A DNA stretch of 64,000 nt from Verrucomicrobiales bacterium (GTDB lineage Bacteria; Verrucomicrobiota; Verrucomicrobiia; Limisphaerales; UBA11320). The notes below the pieces were generated by a model, which saw only the letters and a list, made by a program, of their open reading frames with translations, ran no database searches and was not told the DNA's origin. The stretch is taken from assembly GCA_016793885.1 (NCBI GenBank), contig JAEUHE010000151.1:1-64000 (forward strand), given 5' to 3'. Positions 18,224 to 33,253 of the stretch are shown one piece after another (within the stretch, counting starts at the first letter, position 1; each line of letters starts with the position of its first letter). The position numbers and the translations under genes were made by a program.

Positions 18224-18349
18224 AGATTTGTGGTCTGAAATTAGCGCGGAAGCGTCGGGCGTCTAGGGGGAAAGTGAGAGTTGGACAGCTTCTCTCCGTC
18301 CGGGCTAGGATCTACCATCCACCACAGTCGGAGGAGCATCAGGTCATCT

Positions 18350-20824
18350 ATGAATACACAAGGCCCGATAGGGCAGCAAACCGAGCGGCGCCCCGATCGC
18401 AGGGGAGCAAGAGCGTCCCAGGCCTCTCTAGTCCGATGGTGGGGATGGGTCTTAACGACCTTGGCAATCGGGGGCCAAGTCGGCTTCGGGGCCACGGTGG
18501 ATGATTTTCTGCCACTGCGATATACGAACTCACCCACCCAGATTCTTCCGGCACGCCTCTGGACTCCGCGGAATCCATTGCCCGACCAAAAGTATCCCTT
18601 GGTGTTGTTCTTGCACGGGGCGGGGGAACGTGGGACGGACAATCGGCTGCAACTCGACGGCCAGGCGGCGCAACTCGTGTTCGTGGAGCCCCACAACCAG
18701 GCCCGCTGGCCGTGCTTTATGCTCGCCCCCCAGTGCCCTCCGGGCCTGACCTGGGCTGGCATGAACGCCGGGGACACTTGGGGGGATCCAGATGGGACGG
18801 GAGACTTTACCGCTCAGCCAACCTGGCCGCTGGCGAGCGTGATGGCACTGCTGGCACAGCTAACGAACAGCGGCCCCTATGCCGCCCAAATCGACGTGTC
18901 GCGGCTGTTGGTCACGGGGCTGTCCATGGGCGGATTTGGGACTTGGGAAGCAATCTCCCGCTGGCCCGGAGTGTTTCGCGGCGCGGTACCGATTTGCGGT
19001 GGCGGCGATCCACGAAGGGTGTCCAGCATCGGATCGGTGCCGGTGTGGGCTTTTCATGCTGAGGACGATGGCGTCGTGTTGGTGGGTCGGTCGCGTCAAA
19101 TGATTCTATCGCTGCGGGCCCTCGGGCAGTCGGTTCGTTATACCGAGTTCCCAGCCAGCCTCGGAGTAGGTCATGGATCCTGGATTCCTGCGTATGGGGA
19201 TGGCGGCCTTTTGCCTTGGCTGTTCGGTGAGGTTGTTTCGCTCGGGGGAGATGGACTTTACACCGAGTATTTTGGCACCACCAACTGGTCGGGAGCCGTC
19301 CGAACCAGGCGCGTAGAACCGGCCCCTGATCTCAATTGGGGGACTTCAGCTCCGGCCGGAGCCCCGGCCGACCGCTTCAGCGCGCGGTTGCAGGCGTACT
19401 GGGTTGTGCCGGAGACGGGACGTTACACCTTCAGAGCCAGCGCTGACGATCAGCTGTCGGTTTGGATCGATGACCAACCGCTCATCCCCTCGGAGCCGGT
19501 TATGACCAACGGAGTCGTCGCCAGTCGCGAACTTACCGCTGGTCGACACGCGCTCCGCTTGGACTACGCTGAACTGACGGGACGGGCGTGGATGCGGTTG
19601 GAGGCGGGACTGGAGGGCCAGGCCGTTCGTCCCTTGGCGATGGATGCCTTGTTCTCCGACGTGCAGCGGGTAGAGCCTCCCACCTTCGATCCTCCGGCAG
19701 GTTCGTACGCAGGCGCCCAGTGGGTGAGCCTGGCCTGTGCCACCCCGAGTGCCATCATTCGCTACACGACGAATGGAATGGCTCCCAGCTCTCAGTCCAC
19801 GCGTTATACTGGACCGGTTTGGGTGGCCGCCCCGGGGTTGCTGCGCGCGGCAGCGACTCAAGCGGGTTCGACCAACAGTCAGTTGGCCAGTGCCGACTAC
19901 CAGATCTATCCGGCGATTTTAGCCTCGCCGACCAACCGAGTGCTAGCACCGGGAGCCCCGGGAACATTCACGGTGATGGCGGTCGGAAAGGGGCCGCTGC
20001 AGTATCAGTGGTATCGGGACGGAGCGGCGCTGCTGGACGAAACCAACGCCAGCCTCACGTTCTCCCAGGCGCAGGTGGCCTGGAGTGGATCTTACACGGT
20101 TGCCGTGACGGATGAATTTGCATCTGTGACCTCGGCCCCGGCGGCCCTTTTCGTGGGACTGAAGCCGACCTTTTTGGTTCGTCCCCAAACCACCAGCGTG
20201 CTCCTGGGGGATTCGGCCTCCTTCTCCGCGGAGGTTACCGGGACTCCCCCCTTTCTATTCAGCTGGCGTCGCAACGGCCAGCCGTTCACGAACCTGCTCC
20301 GGGCCGAGAATTTTTGCATCCTGACGATTCCGGTCGTGGACAGCACTCATTTAGCTTCCTACACCGTAACGGTCACCAACCGGGCCGGAACCAGTTTTGC
20401 GAGCCCTACGGTTCGACTCTCGGGGCTGGCGGACCTCGACAATGACCGCTTGCCGGATGCTTGGGAGACCCAGTATGGATTGAATCCGGGAGTGCCTTCC
20501 GAATTGACGTTGGATTCCGATGGTGACGGCCGAAGCGATCGGGACGAGTATTTGGCCAGCACCCATCCTCGGGAAGGGACAGATTTTCTGACTCTACAAG
20601 CCACGTCGGCGCCAGGAGATCAACTCGAACTCAGCTTTGCGATGAGGTCGAATCGGACCTATCGCATCGTGCAAGCGCTGGCTTTGGGGGCGGGAGACTG
20701 GAACTCGCTGGCCGACGTGCCGGCCTCTCTCAGCAATCGCTGGGCTAGCATTCTTGTCCCGGTGGGAGACGGAGTGCCCCACTTCTATTACCGGCTGATC
20801 ACACCTGCCCCGAGTGGGCGTTAA
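18350..20824 (+). CDS. Secreted multidomain esterase with PA14, chitobiase-C and Ig-like domains
   Basis: 824 residues from the ATG at 18350, which has GGAGGAG twelve bases upstream; the frame stays open further upstream but without a better start. After an export signal (WWGWVLTTLAIGGQVGFG) comes an alpha/beta hydrolase of the PHB-depolymerase/prolyl-oligopeptidase-like type: oxyanion segment VLFLHGAGERG, nucleophile Ser192 in GLSMGGFG, Asp in FHAEDDGVV and His275 in VGHGSW. Then a PA14 domain (GLYTEYFGTTNWSGAV, ADDQLSVWIDD), a chitobiase/hexosaminidase C-terminal domain (FDPPAGSYAGAQWV, IRYTTNGMAPS), two Ig-like domains, a calcium-type thrombospondin-3 stretch (DLDNDRLPDAWETQYGLNPG) and a tail ending FYYRL. 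It probably deacylates polysaccharides. It is convergent with, and overlaps by four bases, the next gene. Confidence 0.88.
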   Translation: MNTQGPIGQQTERRPDRRGARASQASLVRWWGWVLTTLAIGGQVGFGATVDDFLPLRYTNSPTQILPARLWTPRNPLPDQKYPLVLFLHGAGERGTDNRLQLDGQAAQLVFVEPHNQARWPCFMLAPQCPPGLTWAGMNAGDTWGDPDGTGDFTAQPTWPLASVMALLAQLTNSGPYAAQIDVSRLLVTGLSMGGFGTWEAISRWPGVFRGAVPICGGGDPRRVSSIGSVPVWAFHAEDDGVVLVGRSRQMILSLRALGQSVRYTEFPASLGVGHGSWIPAYGDGGLLPWLFGEVVSLGGDGLYTEYFGTTNWSGAVRTRRVEPAPDLNWGTSAPAGAPADRFSARLQAYWVVPETGRYTFRASADDQLSVWIDDQPLIPSEPVMTNGVVASRELTAGRHALRLDYAELTGRAWMRLEAGLEGQAVRPLAMDALFSDVQRVEPPTFDPPAGSYAGAQWVSLACATPSAIIRYTTNGMAPSSQSTRYTGPVWVAAPGLLRAAATQAGSTNSQLASADYQIYPAILASPTNRVLAPGAPGTFTVMAVGKGPLQYQWYRDGAALLDETNASLTFSQAQVAWSGSYTVAVTDEFASVTSAPAALFVGLKPTFLVRPQTTSVLLGDSASFSAEVTGTPPFLFSWRRNGQPFTNLLRAENFCILTIPVVDSTHLASYTVTVTNRAGTSFASPTVRLSGLADLDNDRLPDAWETQYGLNPGVPSELTLDSDGDGRSDRDEYLASTHPREGTDFLTLQATSAPGDQLELSFAMRSNRTYRIVQALALGAGDWNSLADVPASLSNRWASILVPVGDGVPHFYYRLITPAPSGR

Positions 20825-21813
20825 GGCTTCGTGCTGGATGCGTAGAGCCGAGCAAGGTCCAAGAGCAAGGGTTCCAAGCTGGAGTAATAGTCATCCTCGC
20901 TCAGGGTCGCCTTGGTTTCACGTAACCGGGCGATCTTGAGTTCTATTTGATCACGCTGTTGGCGCAGAGCAGGCGGCAGCGCTCGCTCGGTGAGATTGGG
21001 AACCAGGCACAGCTGATTGGCTCGCAGACCGTCCGGTTCGGCTCCGTCCTTGGCTTTCTTGACAGCACGCACGCCGCGAAACCAATCGGCGGGTGTTCCC
21101 AAGCCGTCGCCATTGTCGTCGAGCAACGGATGCTCGGTCGCCATGCGTTGTTCAAGTTGGTAGAAATCGGCCGTGCGTTTGGCGGCCGTCAGATGAGCCT
21201 CCAACAGAGAGGTCTGACCATCTTTGTCGAGATCTGCCTCTGGATCGGCGATGGCGGCGCTGATGAAGTCTCCGTAGCGGGCAAAATTCTGTTCCGCGCC
21301 GTTTTTGGTAGCCGTCAGGATGCTGCGACCTTCGCCGGACAACGCCTTGAGAAAAGGGCCGCTGGCGGAGGTGCAGTTGATCACAGCAAGACGCCGTCGG
21401 AAGGGTTTCAGCCATTCTGCCAGTTCCTGGGCTGTGACGTCGTAGCCAGTCAGGTTGAATTTGGCTTCCTTGCCGTTGAAGGTTCCATGGCCAATGAGGA
21501 CGATCCACAGATCGCCCCAACCTTCCTTGGGTTCGGAATTGAGGGCCTCGCGCAGCTGTTGAATCGAGTTGGTGGCGGTTGCGGGATCGAATCCGATCGG
21601 AACGGCGGAGAGCTCGGCCTTCTGGGCGGCGGCCAGCCAGCGATCTCCCCATTCCTTGAACAGGGTTTGATAGGTTTCCTCCCCCGGGGCGCCCAGAACG
21701 ACGAGCAGTCGGCTACGGGCGGGAGGCGCGCCGGTGGCGGCTGAGTCGGCAGCGGGGAGAGCTGCGCGCATCATGGACAGACCGAGGAGAATCGGCAGCA
21801 GAATCCGTGTCAC
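20821..21813 (-). CDS. Exported clan-CD (caspase/legumain-like) cysteine peptidase homologue
   Basis: 330 residues from the GTG at 21813. This start is chosen because it shares GTGA with the stop of the upstream gene, has AGGA six bases before it and opens into a signal peptide (MTRILLPILLGLSMMRAALP). The core reads like a clan-CD fold: a strand (RLLVVLGAPGEE), then WIVLIGHGTFNG with candidate catalytic His109, then LAVINCTSASG with candidate Cys147 after a hydrophobic strand. C13 and caspase-like peptidases have just this order of His-Gly and Cys. The pattern is convincing but the family is divergent, so activity is inferred. A later stretch holds LLDDNGDGLG, a possible calcium site, and the C terminus is a helical coiled segment. 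Coupled to the VWA protein. Confidence 0.65.
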   Translation of the reverse strand: MTRILLPILLGLSMMRAALPAADSAATGAPPARSRLLVVLGAPGEETYQTLFKEWGDRWLAAAQKAELSAVPIGFDPATATNSIQQLREALNSEPKEGWGDLWIVLIGHGTFNGKEAKFNLTGYDVTAQELAEWLKPFRRRLAVINCTSASGPFLKALSGEGRSILTATKNGAEQNFARYGDFISAAIADPEADLDKDGQTSLLEAHLTAAKRTADFYQLEQRMATEHPLLDDNGDGLGTPADWFRGVRAVKKAKDGAEPDGLRANQLCLVPNLTERALPPALRQQRDQIELKIARLRETKATLSEDDYYSSLEPLLLDLARLYASSTKP

Positions 21814-24179
21814 GCGAGTCCTTTCCAACGGCGGACGCCCCATTCTCCGATGAAACAGGCCAGTGCGAAGAGGAACACCAGGGAGCGGTGCCACAGCGGG
21901 GTGCTGGCGGTCTCCATGAGGGGCACTTTGCGATTGGGCAAGCCGTTGACAAAGCTGTTCAGGCCGGAGGCCGGAACGACCTCGCCTCCCGTCACGCGGG
22001 CAAGGGTTTCGAGCAGGCCGGTGTTCGGCTTCAGGGCCTGAAATTCCTCGTTGCCGATGTTGGATGCCCAGCCGCCGGAAATTTTTCCTTCCTCCACTCC
22101 GGTTCCCGAAGTCGCCACGACGCGTGCTTCAAAGGCCCCGGCCTCGCGGGGGATGTAGGTGGTCTCGTACACCCCGGGCTCGGTCGCCGAAGGCTCGGCG
22201 GTCAGTCGAACCGTCGATCGGTTCGTGCCGACGGCAGTCATCTGCTCCACGACGATGGAGGCGCTGACGTTATCGAGGGGTAGAAAATCCTTGCCCCGCA
22301 CGCGCACCCGCAGGGTGGTCGACTGGTTGGGATCGGACAGATTTGTCTCGGTTTCCAATTCGACGCGTTTCGGCACATCGGCCACGAGCCAGCGGACCAG
22401 CTGACGCCAGGCTTTGTCCATATCCTGGTGCAACTCTGCGTCCTTGAGGCCCCATCGCCACAGATCGCCGATCATGACGGCGGCGGTGCGGCCGTTTCCG
22501 AATCGCTGAGTGACGATGGCGGGGTATTGGGTTCCCTGATCGTCCTTGACGGTGGCAACTACGGTGGCTCCCGGCTTAAAGTCCCGGACTTGGTTGAGCA
22601 CTTTGAACCCGGGCATGGCATCGATTCGAACCTGCTCATCGACTTCCTGGCTGCGCAGGCGAGCCCAGGGTTGCAGCAATCCTTCCCGGGTGAGGCTGAA
22701 CTTGAGTTGGTTGGTGGCGGGACGGGTTACGGGGGGGGCATCCAGGTAGACTGGCAGCATGTCCCCCACGGGGGTGCGCTGGTATTTCCCTTGTTGGAAG
22801 CATTCCTGTCCGCCGAGCATGAGCAAGCCGCCGCCGCGCAAGGAGACAAACTTTTGCAACAATAGCAACTGGTCGGGACTGAAGAACTCCGCCTCCAGAT
22901 CGTCGATGATGACGGCATGGTAGGCGAAGAGATCCTCCGGCAGTTTGGGGAACCCGCCGCGCAGCTCATTTTGATCTCGGAGGTTCAGTCGGATCAGCAC
23001 GGGTTGATCGTAGCGCTCGATCTCTTCCTTATCCTGGTTTCCAAAGCCACGGAACAGCGGATTGCTGGACTCGCCGGTCCGGCCTCGGAAATCGAACTTG
23101 GGCTCGCGACGGGCGATGCGGATGAGGCCAACCAACTGCACCTGGCTGTCCTCTTGGAGGGCGCGGTTCAGAAACTTGTATTCCCAATTTGGACGGCCGG
23201 ACACGTAGAGCACACGAAACGGATCCTGCCCGCGGTCGACAGAGAAGTGGCGAGAGTTATTGGCCAGGGTTGCTTCGGAGGTGGGGAGCGGTGGGGAACT
23301 GGACGATCGCTCGTCCTGAGCCAGGACCTTGACTTGGTAGTGGCTCAGTCCGGCGTGGTCGGGCTTGAACTGAAAGCGGAACGCCACTCGGGCGTCGTCA
23401 CTGGTGGGAGTTTCGGTCTGCTCAGCGATGACCTTGCCGGCCATGTCGAGCAACTGCGCGGAGATCTTGCGTCCAGAGTAGCCGAACGCCGCGACATCGG
23501 CCTGGGCACTCACGGGCGCATCCTCAAAGGCGGTCTGAGTGGCACTCACTCCGGTCAGAGCGATGTCCCGAGCCGGCGCGTTTCGGCCCAGGACCACCGG
23601 GTAGATGGGGGGGAGTCCATTGGTATCCGTGATACCTTTGGGCAGATCGGTGGCATTCCCGTCGGTAAAGAGCAGGATGCCCGCGACGGGTTGACCTTGG
23701 AAGCGTTCTTTCAGGGACGCGAGGGCGGATCCCAGGGCGGACGCCTTACCATCGAAGGGGAGATCCGAGAAGGCCTCTACGCGCTGGACCCGGGAGCTGA
23801 AGGTGTAGGATCGCACCTGAAAATCCTTGGCCAGAGTGCTTTGCCAGGCTGGCCCCTCCTCGACCAGGAGCTTTTTGAGTTCATCTCCTCGGCTTTGGGC
23901 ACTGCCCTGGTCCTTGATCTGGAGGCTCATACTATTGTCCGCCAGAACCAGAAAGAAGTTGGCTCCTGATCGGGCGCGTTCCGCCACCCACACCGGTTCG
24001 AGCAAGCACAGAGCCAAGGCGATCAGACCGAGAATCTTGAGGCTCAGGCATAGAAGTTTGTATGCCGGGGAGAGTCGGGAGTTGCGATAACCCCACGCGA
24101 GAAAGACGAGCGCGACGAGCAGCAGCAAGGCCGCTGGCATCAGCCAGTTCAGCGCGTTGAAGAGGATCGCAGCGAACAT
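21810..24179 (-). CDS. VWA-domain membrane protein with glutamine-amidotransferase-like domain
   Basis: 789 residues. Two N-terminal transmembrane helices (about 11-29 and 44-62) and one at the C terminus (about 765-780) anchor a large outer part. The VWA domain has an intact metal site: DNSMS at residues 81-85 (DxSxS) and LLFTDGNATD. Further on, FRVLYVSGRPNWEYKFLNRA and YHAVIIDDLEAEFFS with GGGLLMLGG are features of the glutamine-amidotransferase-like domain found with VWA in planctomycete and verrucomicrobial proteins. The usual partners, a MoxR ATPase and a DUF58 protein, are not next to it. Instead its stop overlaps the start of the clan-CD-like gene (GTGA), suggesting a coupled pair. The ATG at 24179 is well placed before the first helix. 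Confidence 0.82.
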   Translation of the reverse strand: MFAAILFNALNWLMPAALLLLVALVFLAWGYRNSRLSPAYKLLCLSLKILGLIALALCLLEPVWVAERARSGANFFLVLADNSMSLQIKDQGSAQSRGDELKKLLVEEGPAWQSTLAKDFQVRSYTFSSRVQRVEAFSDLPFDGKASALGSALASLKERFQGQPVAGILLFTDGNATDLPKGITDTNGLPPIYPVVLGRNAPARDIALTGVSATQTAFEDAPVSAQADVAAFGYSGRKISAQLLDMAGKVIAEQTETPTSDDARVAFRFQFKPDHAGLSHYQVKVLAQDERSSSSPPLPTSEATLANNSRHFSVDRGQDPFRVLYVSGRPNWEYKFLNRALQEDSQVQLVGLIRIARREPKFDFRGRTGESSNPLFRGFGNQDKEEIERYDQPVLIRLNLRDQNELRGGFPKLPEDLFAYHAVIIDDLEAEFFSPDQLLLLQKFVSLRGGGLLMLGGQECFQQGKYQRTPVGDMLPVYLDAPPVTRPATNQLKFSLTREGLLQPWARLRSQEVDEQVRIDAMPGFKVLNQVRDFKPGATVVATVKDDQGTQYPAIVTQRFGNGRTAAVMIGDLWRWGLKDAELHQDMDKAWRQLVRWLVADVPKRVELETETNLSDPNQSTTLRVRVRGKDFLPLDNVSASIVVEQMTAVGTNRSTVRLTAEPSATEPGVYETTYIPREAGAFEARVVATSGTGVEEGKISGGWASNIGNEEFQALKPNTGLLETLARVTGGEVVPASGLNSFVNGLPNRKVPLMETASTPLWHRSLVFLFALACFIGEWGVRRWKGLA

Positions 24180-29158: not shown

Positions 29159-30598
29159 CTAGTGGGTCGCCAATTTCGACGACTTAGGACTCTTGCTCGA
29201 CGGATTGGCATCCAGCTCGCCCACCGGCTTGCCATCCGTGGTGTTCCAAACGAGCACCTTGCCACTGAAGGTGCCCGCGAAGAGCAGCCGGCCGTCTTGG
29301 CTAAAGGCAACGTTGAGGGGAAGCTCGTTCTGGAGCTCCATGGATTTACGTTTATTTCCATCCTTATCCCACGTCCGCACTTTGCCATTGCGACCGCAGC
29401 TGGCGATAAGTCCATCATGGGAGAAATGGAGCCCAGTGACACCTCCTTCATGAGCGAGCCAACTTTTCACCGGTTTGCCGCTCTCGAGCTCCCAGGTCTT
29501 GATGGTGCCGTCCGCTCCGGCGGACGCGAGAACCTTCGAATCTCCTCGCCAACTGAGGGCTCGAATGCTCCCTGGGTGTCCCGGGAGGGAGAAGATTTCC
29601 TGACCGCTGTCGGGATCCCAGACGTAGAGGCTACCATTGCGATCGCCGGAGGCCAGGAGCAGTCCGTTCGGACTGAATGCCACGGCGGTGATCCAATCCG
29701 TGTGCTTTTTAATCCGGTGCTCCACGTCTCCGGTTGCGGTGAGGTGAATCTTGAGGGTGCGGCCTGGACCGCCGAGAGCGACGCGGGTCTGGTCGGGGCT
29801 GATATCCCCGGTAAGGGCCACATCATACTCATCGCCCACCACCATGATGGGTTTGCCTGACCCCACATCCCACAGCGCCACTCGTCCGGACTTCCCGCCC
29901 TGACCACCCGCGGCGAGCACCAGATCGCCGCTGCGCGAAAACCTGACGGTGTGCGGCTGTCCGTTGGTGAACGGGAGAACTCCGGCGAGCTCGCGGGTGT
30001 CCGAGTGATAGAGCAGGACTTGCTTTTGTCCGGAAACGGCCAGCACCGGCGCCCAGGGGCTGGCGCCGATGCTCAATATCGGACCCGCCCGTTGGGTATG
30101 GAGGACGGGCTCGACGGGAAGCCCCCGCGGTATGGCCGGGGCTCCGGTGGGTTTGCCGTCCAGGGTGGCTTTCAGCGTGAGATCAACCGCTAGGCGAGAA
30201 GCCATGGTCGCTTTGCTCCCAGAGTTGTCCAGCAAGCCGTCCATGATCCAGCGTTTGAAAACTTCCAGGTCCTTGTCGGCGAGGCGAGGCCGATTGGGTG
30301 GCATGGTGGGTTCCTCATCGTGCGTGAGAACCCGATACAGCTTGCTGGCCTCGGGATTGCCACTTTGCGCGACCACTCCGGAGGCGCCTCCTTTGGTGAT
30401 GCCGGAGTAGCTGGTCAGATCGAGGTCACCTTTCCTTTTGTCAGGGTTGTGGCATTTGGCGCAGTGATTCTCGACCAGCGGCAGGATCTGATCCTGGAAG
30501 GTGGTCTTGGACTGCGCCGAACTCGAGGCCGTCAGGGCCCAGGTGATGAGTCCGGTAGTTACCCAGCGCCAACCCGTCATGCATGTATCGCGGACCAT
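29159..30598 (-). CDS. Planctomycete-type cytochrome C domain fused to WD40 propeller
   Basis: 479 residues. After a signal peptide comes a short cytochrome-c-like domain with CAKCH and the PSCyt-type context (PLVENHCAKCHNPDKRKGDL, then MPPNRPRLADKDLEVFKRWI). From about residue 170 to 460 it is a WD40 propeller, clear in HTDWITAVAFSPNGLLLASG, NGSLYVWDPDSGQEI, GSIRALSWRGD and VRTWDKDGN. Proteins of this architecture occur in Planctomycetes and Verrucomicrobia next to DUF1549/DUF1553 and DUF1501 genes; their biochemical function is unknown. It is the last gene of a four-gene run, 21 bases after the DUF1553 gene. An ATG at 30580 is an equally good start. Confidence 0.88.
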   Translation of the reverse strand: MVRDTCMTGWRWVTTGLITWALTASSSAQSKTTFQDQILPLVENHCAKCHNPDKRKGDLDLTSYSGITKGGASGVVAQSGNPEASKLYRVLTHDEEPTMPPNRPRLADKDLEVFKRWIMDGLLDNSGSKATMASRLAVDLTLKATLDGKPTGAPAIPRGLPVEPVLHTQRAGPILSIGASPWAPVLAVSGQKQVLLYHSDTRELAGVLPFTNGQPHTVRFSRSGDLVLAAGGQGGKSGRVALWDVGSGKPIMVVGDEYDVALTGDISPDQTRVALGGPGRTLKIHLTATGDVEHRIKKHTDWITAVAFSPNGLLLASGDRNGSLYVWDPDSGQEIFSLPGHPGSIRALSWRGDSKVLASAGADGTIKTWELESGKPVKSWLAHEGGVTGLHFSHDGLIASCGRNGKVRTWDKDGNKRKSMELQNELPLNVAFSQDGRLLFAGTFSGKVLVWNTTDGKPVGELDANPSSKSPKSSKLATH

Positions 30599-30619
30599 GG
30601 AGTAGCGGTGTGATTCTGG

Positions 30620-33253
30620 CTAGTGATTGAAAACGAACTCCTTGGAGTTCAGCAAGGCCCAGAACAAGTCATTGAGTACGGGCACAGGATCGGCTGCCTC
30701 CTTGAAGAAACCCTCGAGGTTTTGCACCTCTTCGGGGGTCGGTTTGCGAGCGAGGCAGCGCAGGTAGAGCTCATCGACAACCTCTTGCCGACGTTTTCCT
30801 TCCTTGATCAGCTTCTTCACCACGCCTCCTTGTTCGATCTTTTCATGCGTCGTCGCGCCGTTGAGGAGATGCAGGGCTTGCGAGAGATTCGGTTCGGTTC
30901 GGACTTCGCAGGAACAGACGGTGGTGCGAGTGGCCCGGCCGAAGGTTCTCAGAAAGTAGTTGTTAACATTGCCGTCCGGGATTTCCACCGCCTTGGAACC
31001 CCTGGGCAGTCCTTGAAATTTGTTCTTGGTTTCGGTCACTTGGGTTAGGACATCCAGCAGCACTTCTGCGCGCAGCCGGCGTATGTTCCCTCGAGCAAAG
31101 TTTCGGTCGTCCAGGGCGTTGCTGTCATTGGTGCGGGTGGACAACTGGTAGGTGCGCGAGTTGCAGATGTCACGAACCAGCCTTCGAAAGTCGTATTGGT
31201 ACTCGGTAAATCGTTTTCCCAAGGACTCGAGAAGTTCGGGGTTGGAGGCGGGATTGCTCACCCGCACATCGTCGACGGGGTCGATGATTCCGCGTCCCAT
31301 GAAATGCGCCCAGACCACATTGGCCAGATTTTTCGCGAAGTAGGGATTGTTGGGTGATGCCAGCCAGGTGGCGAGCGCTTCGCGGCGTCCTTCTGGATCC
31401 TCGATGTTCGGCGTCTCCCCACCGAGGAATTTGGGAGGCATCGGGCGGCCGCCCACCGGATGCTTGATCTCTCCTTCTGGACGGTCGTAGACGATGAATT
31501 CCCGGGGATCCTCGCCAGGCTTGCGTCCCACGCGGGCGAAGAAGCTCGCGAAGCCATAATAGTCATCCATGGTCCAGCGGTCGAAAGGGTGGTTGTGGCA
31601 CTGCGCGCACTGAATGCGCATGCCCATAAAGACCTGCGCGGTGTTCTCCGCAAGTTTAAGAGTGTCCGTCTGAACTTGATAGTAATTCGCTTGGGGTTGT
31701 CGGAACGTGCTCCCTGTGCCGGTCATGAGGCTTTGCACGATTTTGTTGATAGGGACATTGGCGAGCAGTTGGTCCCTCAGCCAATCGTAGTACTGCAACG
31801 CGGACTTGTAGCTGAACTGGTCTTGAGCGGACCGTATTTGGAGCAGTTCGGCGAACTTCATGACCCAGAGGTCGGCGAACTCCTTTCGCTTCAGAAGTTC
31901 GTCGATCAGCTGTTCCCGTTTACCGGAGCCCATGTCCTCGACGAATTCCTCCACTTGGCGGGCCGTGGGGAGCGTGCCAGTGACATCCAGGTAGGCTCGG
32001 CGGATGAAGGTCGCGTCATCACACAGCGGCGATGGCTGCATCCGCAATTTACGCAACTTGGCCTGAACGAGTTCGTCGATGTAGTTGTTCGCCGGGACTT
32101 CGGGGAAGGGTGTTGAGCTGCCGGGAGGGACGACGATGATCTGCGCTCCCACGGTGTGGGTCTCAAACCGAGCCATGACGAACGCCTCGCCACGCTGTCC
32201 CGCGGTCACCAGGCCGGCTTCGCTCACTTTGGCTGCGACTTCGTTGCTGGTGAAAAACACCGCCAAGGAGGTGACGTCGCGGTCGCTTCCATCCGTGTAG
32301 TGGGCTCGTATGCTGAGCTTTTGGGTCGAGTCTTTGCCTTCGAGCACGGCGTGTGAAGGCATGACCTCCAGGCGCAGCACGGAGGGCACGTTGGTGAGGT
32401 CCGGCGGCGCGCCCGCTTGCAGCCAGCGGAGAAGGACCCGATAGGAATCGCTGTCCACCTTGAAGCGTTCTCCTCCTCCATGCGGGACCCGGGCGATCGC
32501 CTTCTCGAGGACCAGGCTTTCCTCGGGTAGGGCGAGATTGATCCGTCGACCCACCCATTCCCGTGTCAGGCGATCATAATCGCCATCGGGATCGTAGCCG
32601 AACAGGGACAGGTGAAATCCGTCCTTGCCCCGGGAAGCTCCGTGGCAGCCGCCGCTGTTGCAGCCTGCTTTCATGAGCACGGGCATGACGTCGAGCCGAA
32701 AGCTTACGCTACGATCCTCCTGCGCATGGGATACGGACAGCGGGATCGTCTTTTCTTTGCCCCCGTAGCGCACGCGGAGCTGCGTCTGTCCATCCGACTT
32801 GGCCTGGATGATCCCGGCCTCCACCCGAGCGACGCTGGCATCCGCCAATCGGATCGAGGCTTGCGCGGTGACATCGCGGGTTGCCCCGCTCTTCAGCACC
32901 GCTTGGACCACTAAAGACTGACGGTCCTCTCGCGAACTGATGTGGATGCTCGGAGGAAAGACTTCCAAGGATTCGACGGGCGGGGCGGTCCAACTGCTGA
33001 GCCATCCCGAGATCGGCATCCTGCCACTGAGGCCCCAGACGAGAGCTAGGAAGGCGACCGCACAAGCGATTCCCCAGCCCCGTTTCCCGCGCCGCTGAGA
33101 AGCCCCTTGGGCGGGTGGAAGTTCGGAGGAAGACTGAGGGGGAGCTGGAGGAACCACCAAGTTGTGTGCGCACGCCGGGCAGGCGATGCTGCGTCCGATC
33201 CAGGCCTCATCGGCGTCGAGATGCTGGGAGCAATGAGGGCAGGCAAACTTCAT
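30620..33253 (-). CDS. DUF1549/DUF1553 cytochrome-like protein with zinc ribbon
   Basis: 877 residues. The N terminus is a cytoplasmic zinc ribbon (FACPHCSQHLD, then SIACPACAHN), followed by one transmembrane helix (about 56-76) and a bacterial Ig-like domain. Next is CNSGGCHGASRGKDGFHLSL, the altered heme-binding segment (C-x4-C-H) usual in this family, a second BIG2-like domain, DUF1549 (NNYIDELVQAKL, AYLDVTGTLPTARQVEEF) containing CAQCHNHPFDRW, and DUF1553 (YFAKNLANVVWAHFMGRG, then RTYQLS). It is predicted to sit on the outer face of the membrane. Its start overlaps the stop of the pre-peptidase gene (ATGA), showing translational coupling. Confidence 0.92.
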   Translation of the reverse strand: MKFACPHCSQHLDADEAWIGRSIACPACAHNLVVPPAPPQSSSELPPAQGASQRRGKRGWGIACAVAFLALVWGLSGRMPISGWLSSWTAPPVESLEVFPPSIHISSREDRQSLVVQAVLKSGATRDVTAQASIRLADASVARVEAGIIQAKSDGQTQLRVRYGGKEKTIPLSVSHAQEDRSVSFRLDVMPVLMKAGCNSGGCHGASRGKDGFHLSLFGYDPDGDYDRLTREWVGRRINLALPEESLVLEKAIARVPHGGGERFKVDSDSYRVLLRWLQAGAPPDLTNVPSVLRLEVMPSHAVLEGKDSTQKLSIRAHYTDGSDRDVTSLAVFFTSNEVAAKVSEAGLVTAGQRGEAFVMARFETHTVGAQIIVVPPGSSTPFPEVPANNYIDELVQAKLRKLRMQPSPLCDDATFIRRAYLDVTGTLPTARQVEEFVEDMGSGKREQLIDELLKRKEFADLWVMKFAELLQIRSAQDQFSYKSALQYYDWLRDQLLANVPINKIVQSLMTGTGSTFRQPQANYYQVQTDTLKLAENTAQVFMGMRIQCAQCHNHPFDRWTMDDYYGFASFFARVGRKPGEDPREFIVYDRPEGEIKHPVGGRPMPPKFLGGETPNIEDPEGRREALATWLASPNNPYFAKNLANVVWAHFMGRGIIDPVDDVRVSNPASNPELLESLGKRFTEYQYDFRRLVRDICNSRTYQLSTRTNDSNALDDRNFARGNIRRLRAEVLLDVLTQVTETKNKFQGLPRGSKAVEIPDGNVNNYFLRTFGRATRTTVCSCEVRTEPNLSQALHLLNGATTHEKIEQGGVVKKLIKEGKRRQEVVDELYLRCLARKPTPEEVQNLEGFFKEAADPVPVLNDLFWALLNSKEFVFNH

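Follow-up and report, generated by a model that had tools for sequence, protein, structure and literature searches.

A conserved gene pair of Verrucomicrobiota and Planctomycetota, normally at the tail of a Bat-type operon, encodes a VWA/GATase-like membrane protein and a probably exported protein of predicted legumain/caspase fold

Several described systems bear on the locus analysed here. Experiments on the Bat-type protein BB0173 place its VWA domain in the periplasm and give it three helices (PMC5700661), and deletion of all bat genes in Leptospira biflexa produced no growth or oxidative-stress phenotype (PMC3557215). In the MoxR-vWA ternary conflict systems, MoxR and VWA proteins occur together with a caspase-like domain that is often inactive (PMC7159879). 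Caspase homologues whose dyad is broken have been described from prokaryotes, Planctomycetes in particular (64% conservation; PMC3501461), and pseudo-orthocaspases are bacterial caspase-fold proteins that have lost the dyad, the natural Tyr/Ser orthocaspase variants being presumed inactive (PMC6426788).

In the window (the whole stretch of 64,000 nucleotides that was analysed), two minus-strand genes are joined by an overlap of stop and start codons:

21810..24179, minus strand: VWA/GATase1-like membrane protein (P0002, 789 residues), an open reading frame whose sole domain-library match is Pfam GATase1_like (1.1e-10), with an AlphaFold2 model of pLDDT 82 and VIA-align matches
20821..21813, minus strand: exported protein of predicted clan-CD fold (P0001, 330 residues), an open reading frame with an AlphaFold2 model of pLDDT 91.1 and a legumain match
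21810..21813, minus strand: four-base stop/start overlap GTGA, between the VWA reading frame (24179 to 21810) and that of the exported protein (21813 to 20821)

An earlier note on this DNA had described GTGA as shared by the VWA stop and a GTG start of the partner, as is confirmed at these positions. The other end of the exported-protein gene meets a convergent plus-strand reading frame (18281-20824) in the palindrome TTAA at 20821-20824, so that both stops lie within four bases on opposite strands. Some 5 kb upstream of the pair, at 29159-33253, inspection by eye only shows a gene of cytochrome c/WD40 type and a large Planctomycetes-style gene resembling DUF1549/DUF1553. The interpretation that we favour, with a fair degree of confidence, is that the exported partner is a periplasmic pseudo-legumain subunit, probably calcium-binding, that would dock on the VWA protein, a membrane protein with a pseudo-GATase domain.

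The features of the exported protein on which the argument turns are these:

21748..21813, minus strand: probable signal peptide, about residues 1-22 (hydrophobic N-terminus, low pLDDT)
21487..21489, minus strand: His109 in G108-H109-G110, present in 112/112 aligned rows
21373..21375, minus strand: Cys147, the proposed nucleophile (Cys 55, Thr 44, Ser 5, Gly 5 and Ala 3 in 112 rows)
21199..21234, minus strand: EF-hand-type loop DLDKDGQTSLLE, residues 194-205 (D194, D196, D198, S202 and E205 in 112/112)
21106..21120, minus strand: DDNGD motif, residues 232-236 (D233 and D236 in 112/112, D232 in 110)

Sequence searches with this protein gave no Pfam, NCBIfam, PDB-sequence, C13 or C14 match, and the Pfam C13 family (PF01650) matched 3 of 78 members, none convincingly (best E 0.025), and not the window protein. 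The AlphaFold2 model, computed on 78 relatives (pLDDT 91.1, pTM 0.87), has the clan-CD (legumain/caspase) fold: VIA-align superposed it on legumain (4nol_A) with a Z of 19.5 and an rmsd of 2.6 over 196 residues, on Arabidopsis metacaspase 4 with a Z of 18.3 and on GPI transamidase subunit K (PIGK) with a Z of 16.6, many clan-CD families exceeded a Z of 15, and Foldseek ranked MALT1, metacaspases and caspases at the top (E about 1e-4 to 1e-6). A hydrophobic N-terminal segment, seen in the window protein and in 71 of 78 relatives, suggests that the protein probably goes to the envelope. Both the clan-CD fold and the signal peptide that the earlier note had read into this gene are thus borne out, the latter as probable. 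The likeness to legumain and PIGK extends to the GHG motif and, for PIGK, to its being a subunit of a membrane complex; the exported protein differs from both in lacking a C13 match above the cut-off and a conserved catalytic cysteine, and in having its own C-terminal helical segment (residues 274-328) and the EF-hand-type loop. In the model, this loop, D194-x-D-x-D-G-x-x-S-x-x-E205, sits between helices 179-187 and 203-220, which is the arrangement of an EF-hand calcium site (DxDxDGxxSxxE between helices), and its five ligand positions are invariant across the 112 rows. That the exported protein binds calcium is a strong prediction from the alignment and the model.

The catalytic positions tell a different story from the fold. 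His109 follows strand 102-107, as the clan-CD histidine follows strand 3, and the positions invariant in the 112 rows are G108-H109-G110, N120, D125, R163, T169, D194, D196, D198, S202, E205, E227, D233 and D236. The conserved cysteine that clan CD carries after strand 4 has no counterpart: position 147 is variable, and none of the other alignment columns in the 112 rows holds a conserved cysteine. On a maximum-likelihood tree built without column 147, at least 12 changes between Cys and other residues, mostly Thr, are required. Since half of the family has Thr, Ser, Gly or Ala at this place with the other conserved positions fixed, the conserved function does not need Cys147. Profile alignment to a legumain fragment and to remote relatives was tried as a means of fixing the nucleophile column, but the choice of anchor moved it between 147, 148 and 149, and no register is claimed; caspase-family (C14) proteins with the same order read D-[SATC]-C-x-S-G, suggesting column 148, and an hhalign trace to the legumain fragment, of insignificant score, sets Ser149, rather than Cys147, against Cys189. 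Judged from the alignment, cysteine is not conserved in any of the registers 147-149, and the exported protein is probably not a cysteine peptidase. Of the His109/Cys147 pair in the earlier note, the numbering is right and the histidine holds for the whole family, but the cysteine for only 55 of 112 rows, and the idea of a protease with its adaptor is not supported.

A version of that idea could still be defended, in which the protein is a true clan-CD cysteine endopeptidase in the Cys147 lineages, the window's included, catalysis having been lost independently elsewhere, and in which the VWA protein is the membrane anchor, as the earlier note had it. Cys147 occurs in both phyla, in the window's own clade, among those members of the window's genus that have the gene, and in 18 of 25 Planctomycetota rows, and this distribution, together with the predicted fold and the invariant His109, is what such a reading would lead one to expect. 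We nonetheless consider it unlikely: the 57 rows that lack Cys147 keep His109 and the remaining conserved positions just as fixed, the repeated switches are between Cys and other residues, mostly Thr, and column 147, restricted to C/T/S/G/A, resembles the small residue found just before the nucleophile in canonical families, so that 147 may not be the nucleophile column, to which the legumain trace (again of insignificant score) adds by pairing Ser149 with the legumain cysteine.

The same trace places S149-x-S151-[GA]152 opposite C-x-S-G, an insignificant match that nevertheless invites a serine-type hydrolase or transamidase on the clan-CD fold, using His109 and either Ser149 or Ser151. Ser151 is found in 111 of 112 rows, as nearly fixed as His109 (112/112), and Ser149 in 104; the remaining rows have Ala (six), Gly (one) and Pro (one) at 149, two transglutaminase-fused relatives (L185 and L186) keep the His with Ala and Glu in that column, and the natural Tyr/Ser orthocaspase variants are presumed inactive (PMC6426788), all of which make such an enzyme quite improbable. 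The fuller proposal, that the exported protein is an active, cysteine-free serine-type peptidase or transamidase held by the VWA protein and processing or sorting envelope proteins, seems to us more doubtful still; if true, it would be a bacterial analogue, in layout, of GPI transamidase.

The fused relatives bear on our preferred reading, a pseudo-legumain binding subunit, in another way. Three signal-peptide proteins of about 800-890 residues (L185, L186 and L187) are fusions of DUF3857/transglutaminase domains with an N-terminal domain remotely related to the exported protein (E 1e-16 to 1e-21); they retain the His (LLGHS, LLGHGG, LFGHGS) and have no Cys at the expected place, from which a non-catalytic clan-CD branch seems to be older than the six-gene operon described below. 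The pseudo-orthocaspases share with the exported protein a bacterial caspase fold and a lost dyad (PMC6426788), but have a C14 p20 domain in which Tyr/Ser replace His/Cys, a pattern that the exported protein does not have: its histidine is invariant, it has no Peptidase_C14 match, it is predicted to be extracytoplasmic and its operon context is its own.

The VWA protein was modelled with AlphaFold2 at a pLDDT of 82.3, and has the following parts:

24084..24152, minus strand: transmembrane helix 1, residues 10-32 (helix in the model)
24003..24068, minus strand: transmembrane helix 2, residues 38-59 (helix in the model)
23925..23939, minus strand: MIDAS motif DNSMS, residues 81-85 (D81 and S83 in 83/83 rows)
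22371..23225, minus strand: GATase1-like domain, about residues 319-603 (Pfam 1.1e-10; VIA-align)
21825..21884, minus strand: transmembrane helix 3, residues 766-785, with an R783-R784 tail (model)

The loop between the first two helices is rich in K/R (mean 2.75 over 84 rows), and the C-terminal tail has a mean K+R of 2.92 with a D+E of 0, R783 and R784 being invariant in 56 rows; because this charge pattern follows the positive-inside rule, the loop and tail are probably inside and the VWA/GATase body periplasmic, a three-helix topology like that of BB0173 (PMC5700661). By VIA-align, the VWA fold, interrupted by other domains, is aligned over about residues 68 to 757, and its matches include a Bacteroides aerotolerance protein (4jdu, Z 15.1) and BatB (3ibs, Z 14.5). 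Domain-wise alignment was used here as Foldseek, given the whole 789-residue model, put beta-galactosidases on top at a TM of 0.12, which we discarded as a multi-domain artefact. The GATase1-like domain matches a Planctomyces limnophilus protein (3rht, Z 21.5). As an enzyme it falls short in the alignment, where the C460 position reads S67/T8/C6/A2/M1 in 84 rows (Ser/Thr in 75/84), so that the domain is without the conserved catalytic Cys of class I glutamine amidotransferases. The earlier note was right to call this partner membrane-anchored, given the three modelled helices, and to see a glutamine-amidotransferase-like domain in it; its intact MIDAS is found in the window (D81-N-S83-M-S85, T172-D173-G174) but not throughout the family, in which S/T147 and D173-G174 are kept in 84/84 rows and the third serine, position 85, is Ser in 29 and Gly in 54 of 83.

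The pair normally closes a Bat-type operon of six genes. When 10 kb of flanking sequence is included, 26 of the best 80 loci show the complete order MoxR, DUF58, BatA (VWA), a DUF4175-like protein of about 1,230 residues, VWA/GATase and exported protein, the families having been assigned by Pfam in one reference locus, where the DUF4175 match lies below its cut-off. The VWA fold, the three-helix topology and, in relatives, the presence upstream of adjacent MoxR, DUF58 and BatA genes tie these loci to the Bat operons, from which they differ by the giant DUF4175-like membrane protein, the GATase1-like domain on the VWA protein, the exported clan-CD-fold protein, and the dispersal of the components in the window's genus. 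In the window's genome (G000), DUF58 lies on contig C124, BatA on C134 and the DUF4175-like gene on C32, apart from the pair on C151; in another genome (G004) they are scattered likewise, and only the VWA and exported genes remain together. Genetically, the strongest reason to think that the two proteins act together is that this pair alone stays adjacent after the operon has broken up. The window's genome also holds, on contig C93 (L166), a separate, paralogous MoxR-DUF58-BatA cluster whose VWA/GATase protein is distantly related (about 25% identity), and the stretch of it that was read has no clan-CD/exported partner. The earlier note had found no described system to match; the pair fits a described kind, the MoxR/DUF58/BatA-type operon, and in the literature we found no description of the six-gene version or of the exported-protein family, an absence that is not proof.

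The joint presence of MoxR, VWA and a caspase-fold protein also recalls the MoxR-vWA conflict (defence) systems of Kaur et al. 2020, with the exported protein as an inactive caspase-like effector, and it is this composition that the two share (PMC7159879). Conflict systems of this kind shuffle their effectors, whereas the gene order here is near-uniform across two phyla and the neighbourhoods examined yielded no recognisable VMAP, iSTAND third component or variable effector, nor a PADLOC match; the genes are single-copy in the genomes checked, and the Bat-type components probably belong to the envelope rather than the cytosol. A defence role of this type is therefore highly improbable, and a subunit of an envelope system remains the reading that we prefer.

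Conservation of the pair itself was followed through at least 484 relatives in named genomes, the best 80 loci of which were fetched from Verrucomicrobiota and Planctomycetota; they include Chthoniobacter flavus, Singulisphaera, Tautonia, Limnoglobus and Aquisphaera, and a few metagenome bins with apparently mislabelled titles. The VWA gene lies directly upstream in 74 of these best 80 loci; of the other six, four are cut off by the end of the contig and two are genuine solos. In 53 of the 74 pairs, an in-frame start codon allows the four-base overlap with the VWA stop. As the same two genes adjoin in this way in two phyla, they are a conserved two-gene unit beyond chance, the unit that the earlier note had proposed. 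The exported protein was present in 32 of 58 related genomes searched, where the VWA protein adjoins it wherever the contig permits, except in two genomes with an exported gene but no adjacent VWA gene (L084/L038, L084 being G023:C464, and L091/L168, L168 being G043:C416). Each protein has one copy in the five genomes checked, all named strains. The neighbours of the solo gene L168 are unrelated, and L122 (8433-9941) shows the widest spacing of any observed pair, with about 1.5 kb between the VWA gene and the exported gene. Viral contigs contained no relative, and a phage origin was set aside. An accidental adjacency of unrelated neighbours, for which one could cite the rest of the operon lying elsewhere in the window's genome, is dismissed: the pairing in 74 of 80 loci already refutes it, the same 5 of 194 genomes drawn from the phylum carry the strong matches to both proteins, and the pair outlasts the breakup of the operon.

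Our proposal is that Verrucomicrobiota and Planctomycetota have an envelope system of Bat type (MoxR/DUF58/BatA) in which the VWA and exported proteins would be the two final subunits. Anchored in the inner membrane by its three helices, the VWA protein would expose its VWA/GATase-like body to the periplasm; the exported protein, a non-peptidase of legumain/caspase fold, would share that compartment as a binding subunit, probably stabilised by calcium and docked on the VWA protein, and its former active-site groove may present or hold a peptide or a partner. Several observations pull against this proposal. The occurrence of Cys147 in the window's clade and most Planctomycetota fits an ancestral activity lost repeatedly, the invariance of His109 is unusual for a non-catalytic protein, Ser149 and Ser151 are conserved enough that either could serve as nucleophile, and two genomes have the exported gene minus an adjacent VWA gene.

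A single His/Cys pair in a single sequence does not justify calling a protein a protease. Bat/MoxR-VWA envelope systems are widespread and have no agreed function; the six-gene version, found in two large phyla and containing two enzyme folds whose catalytic cysteines have seemingly been lost, offers a concrete complex to isolate and suggests that in the bacterial envelope a clan-CD fold may serve as a binding module.
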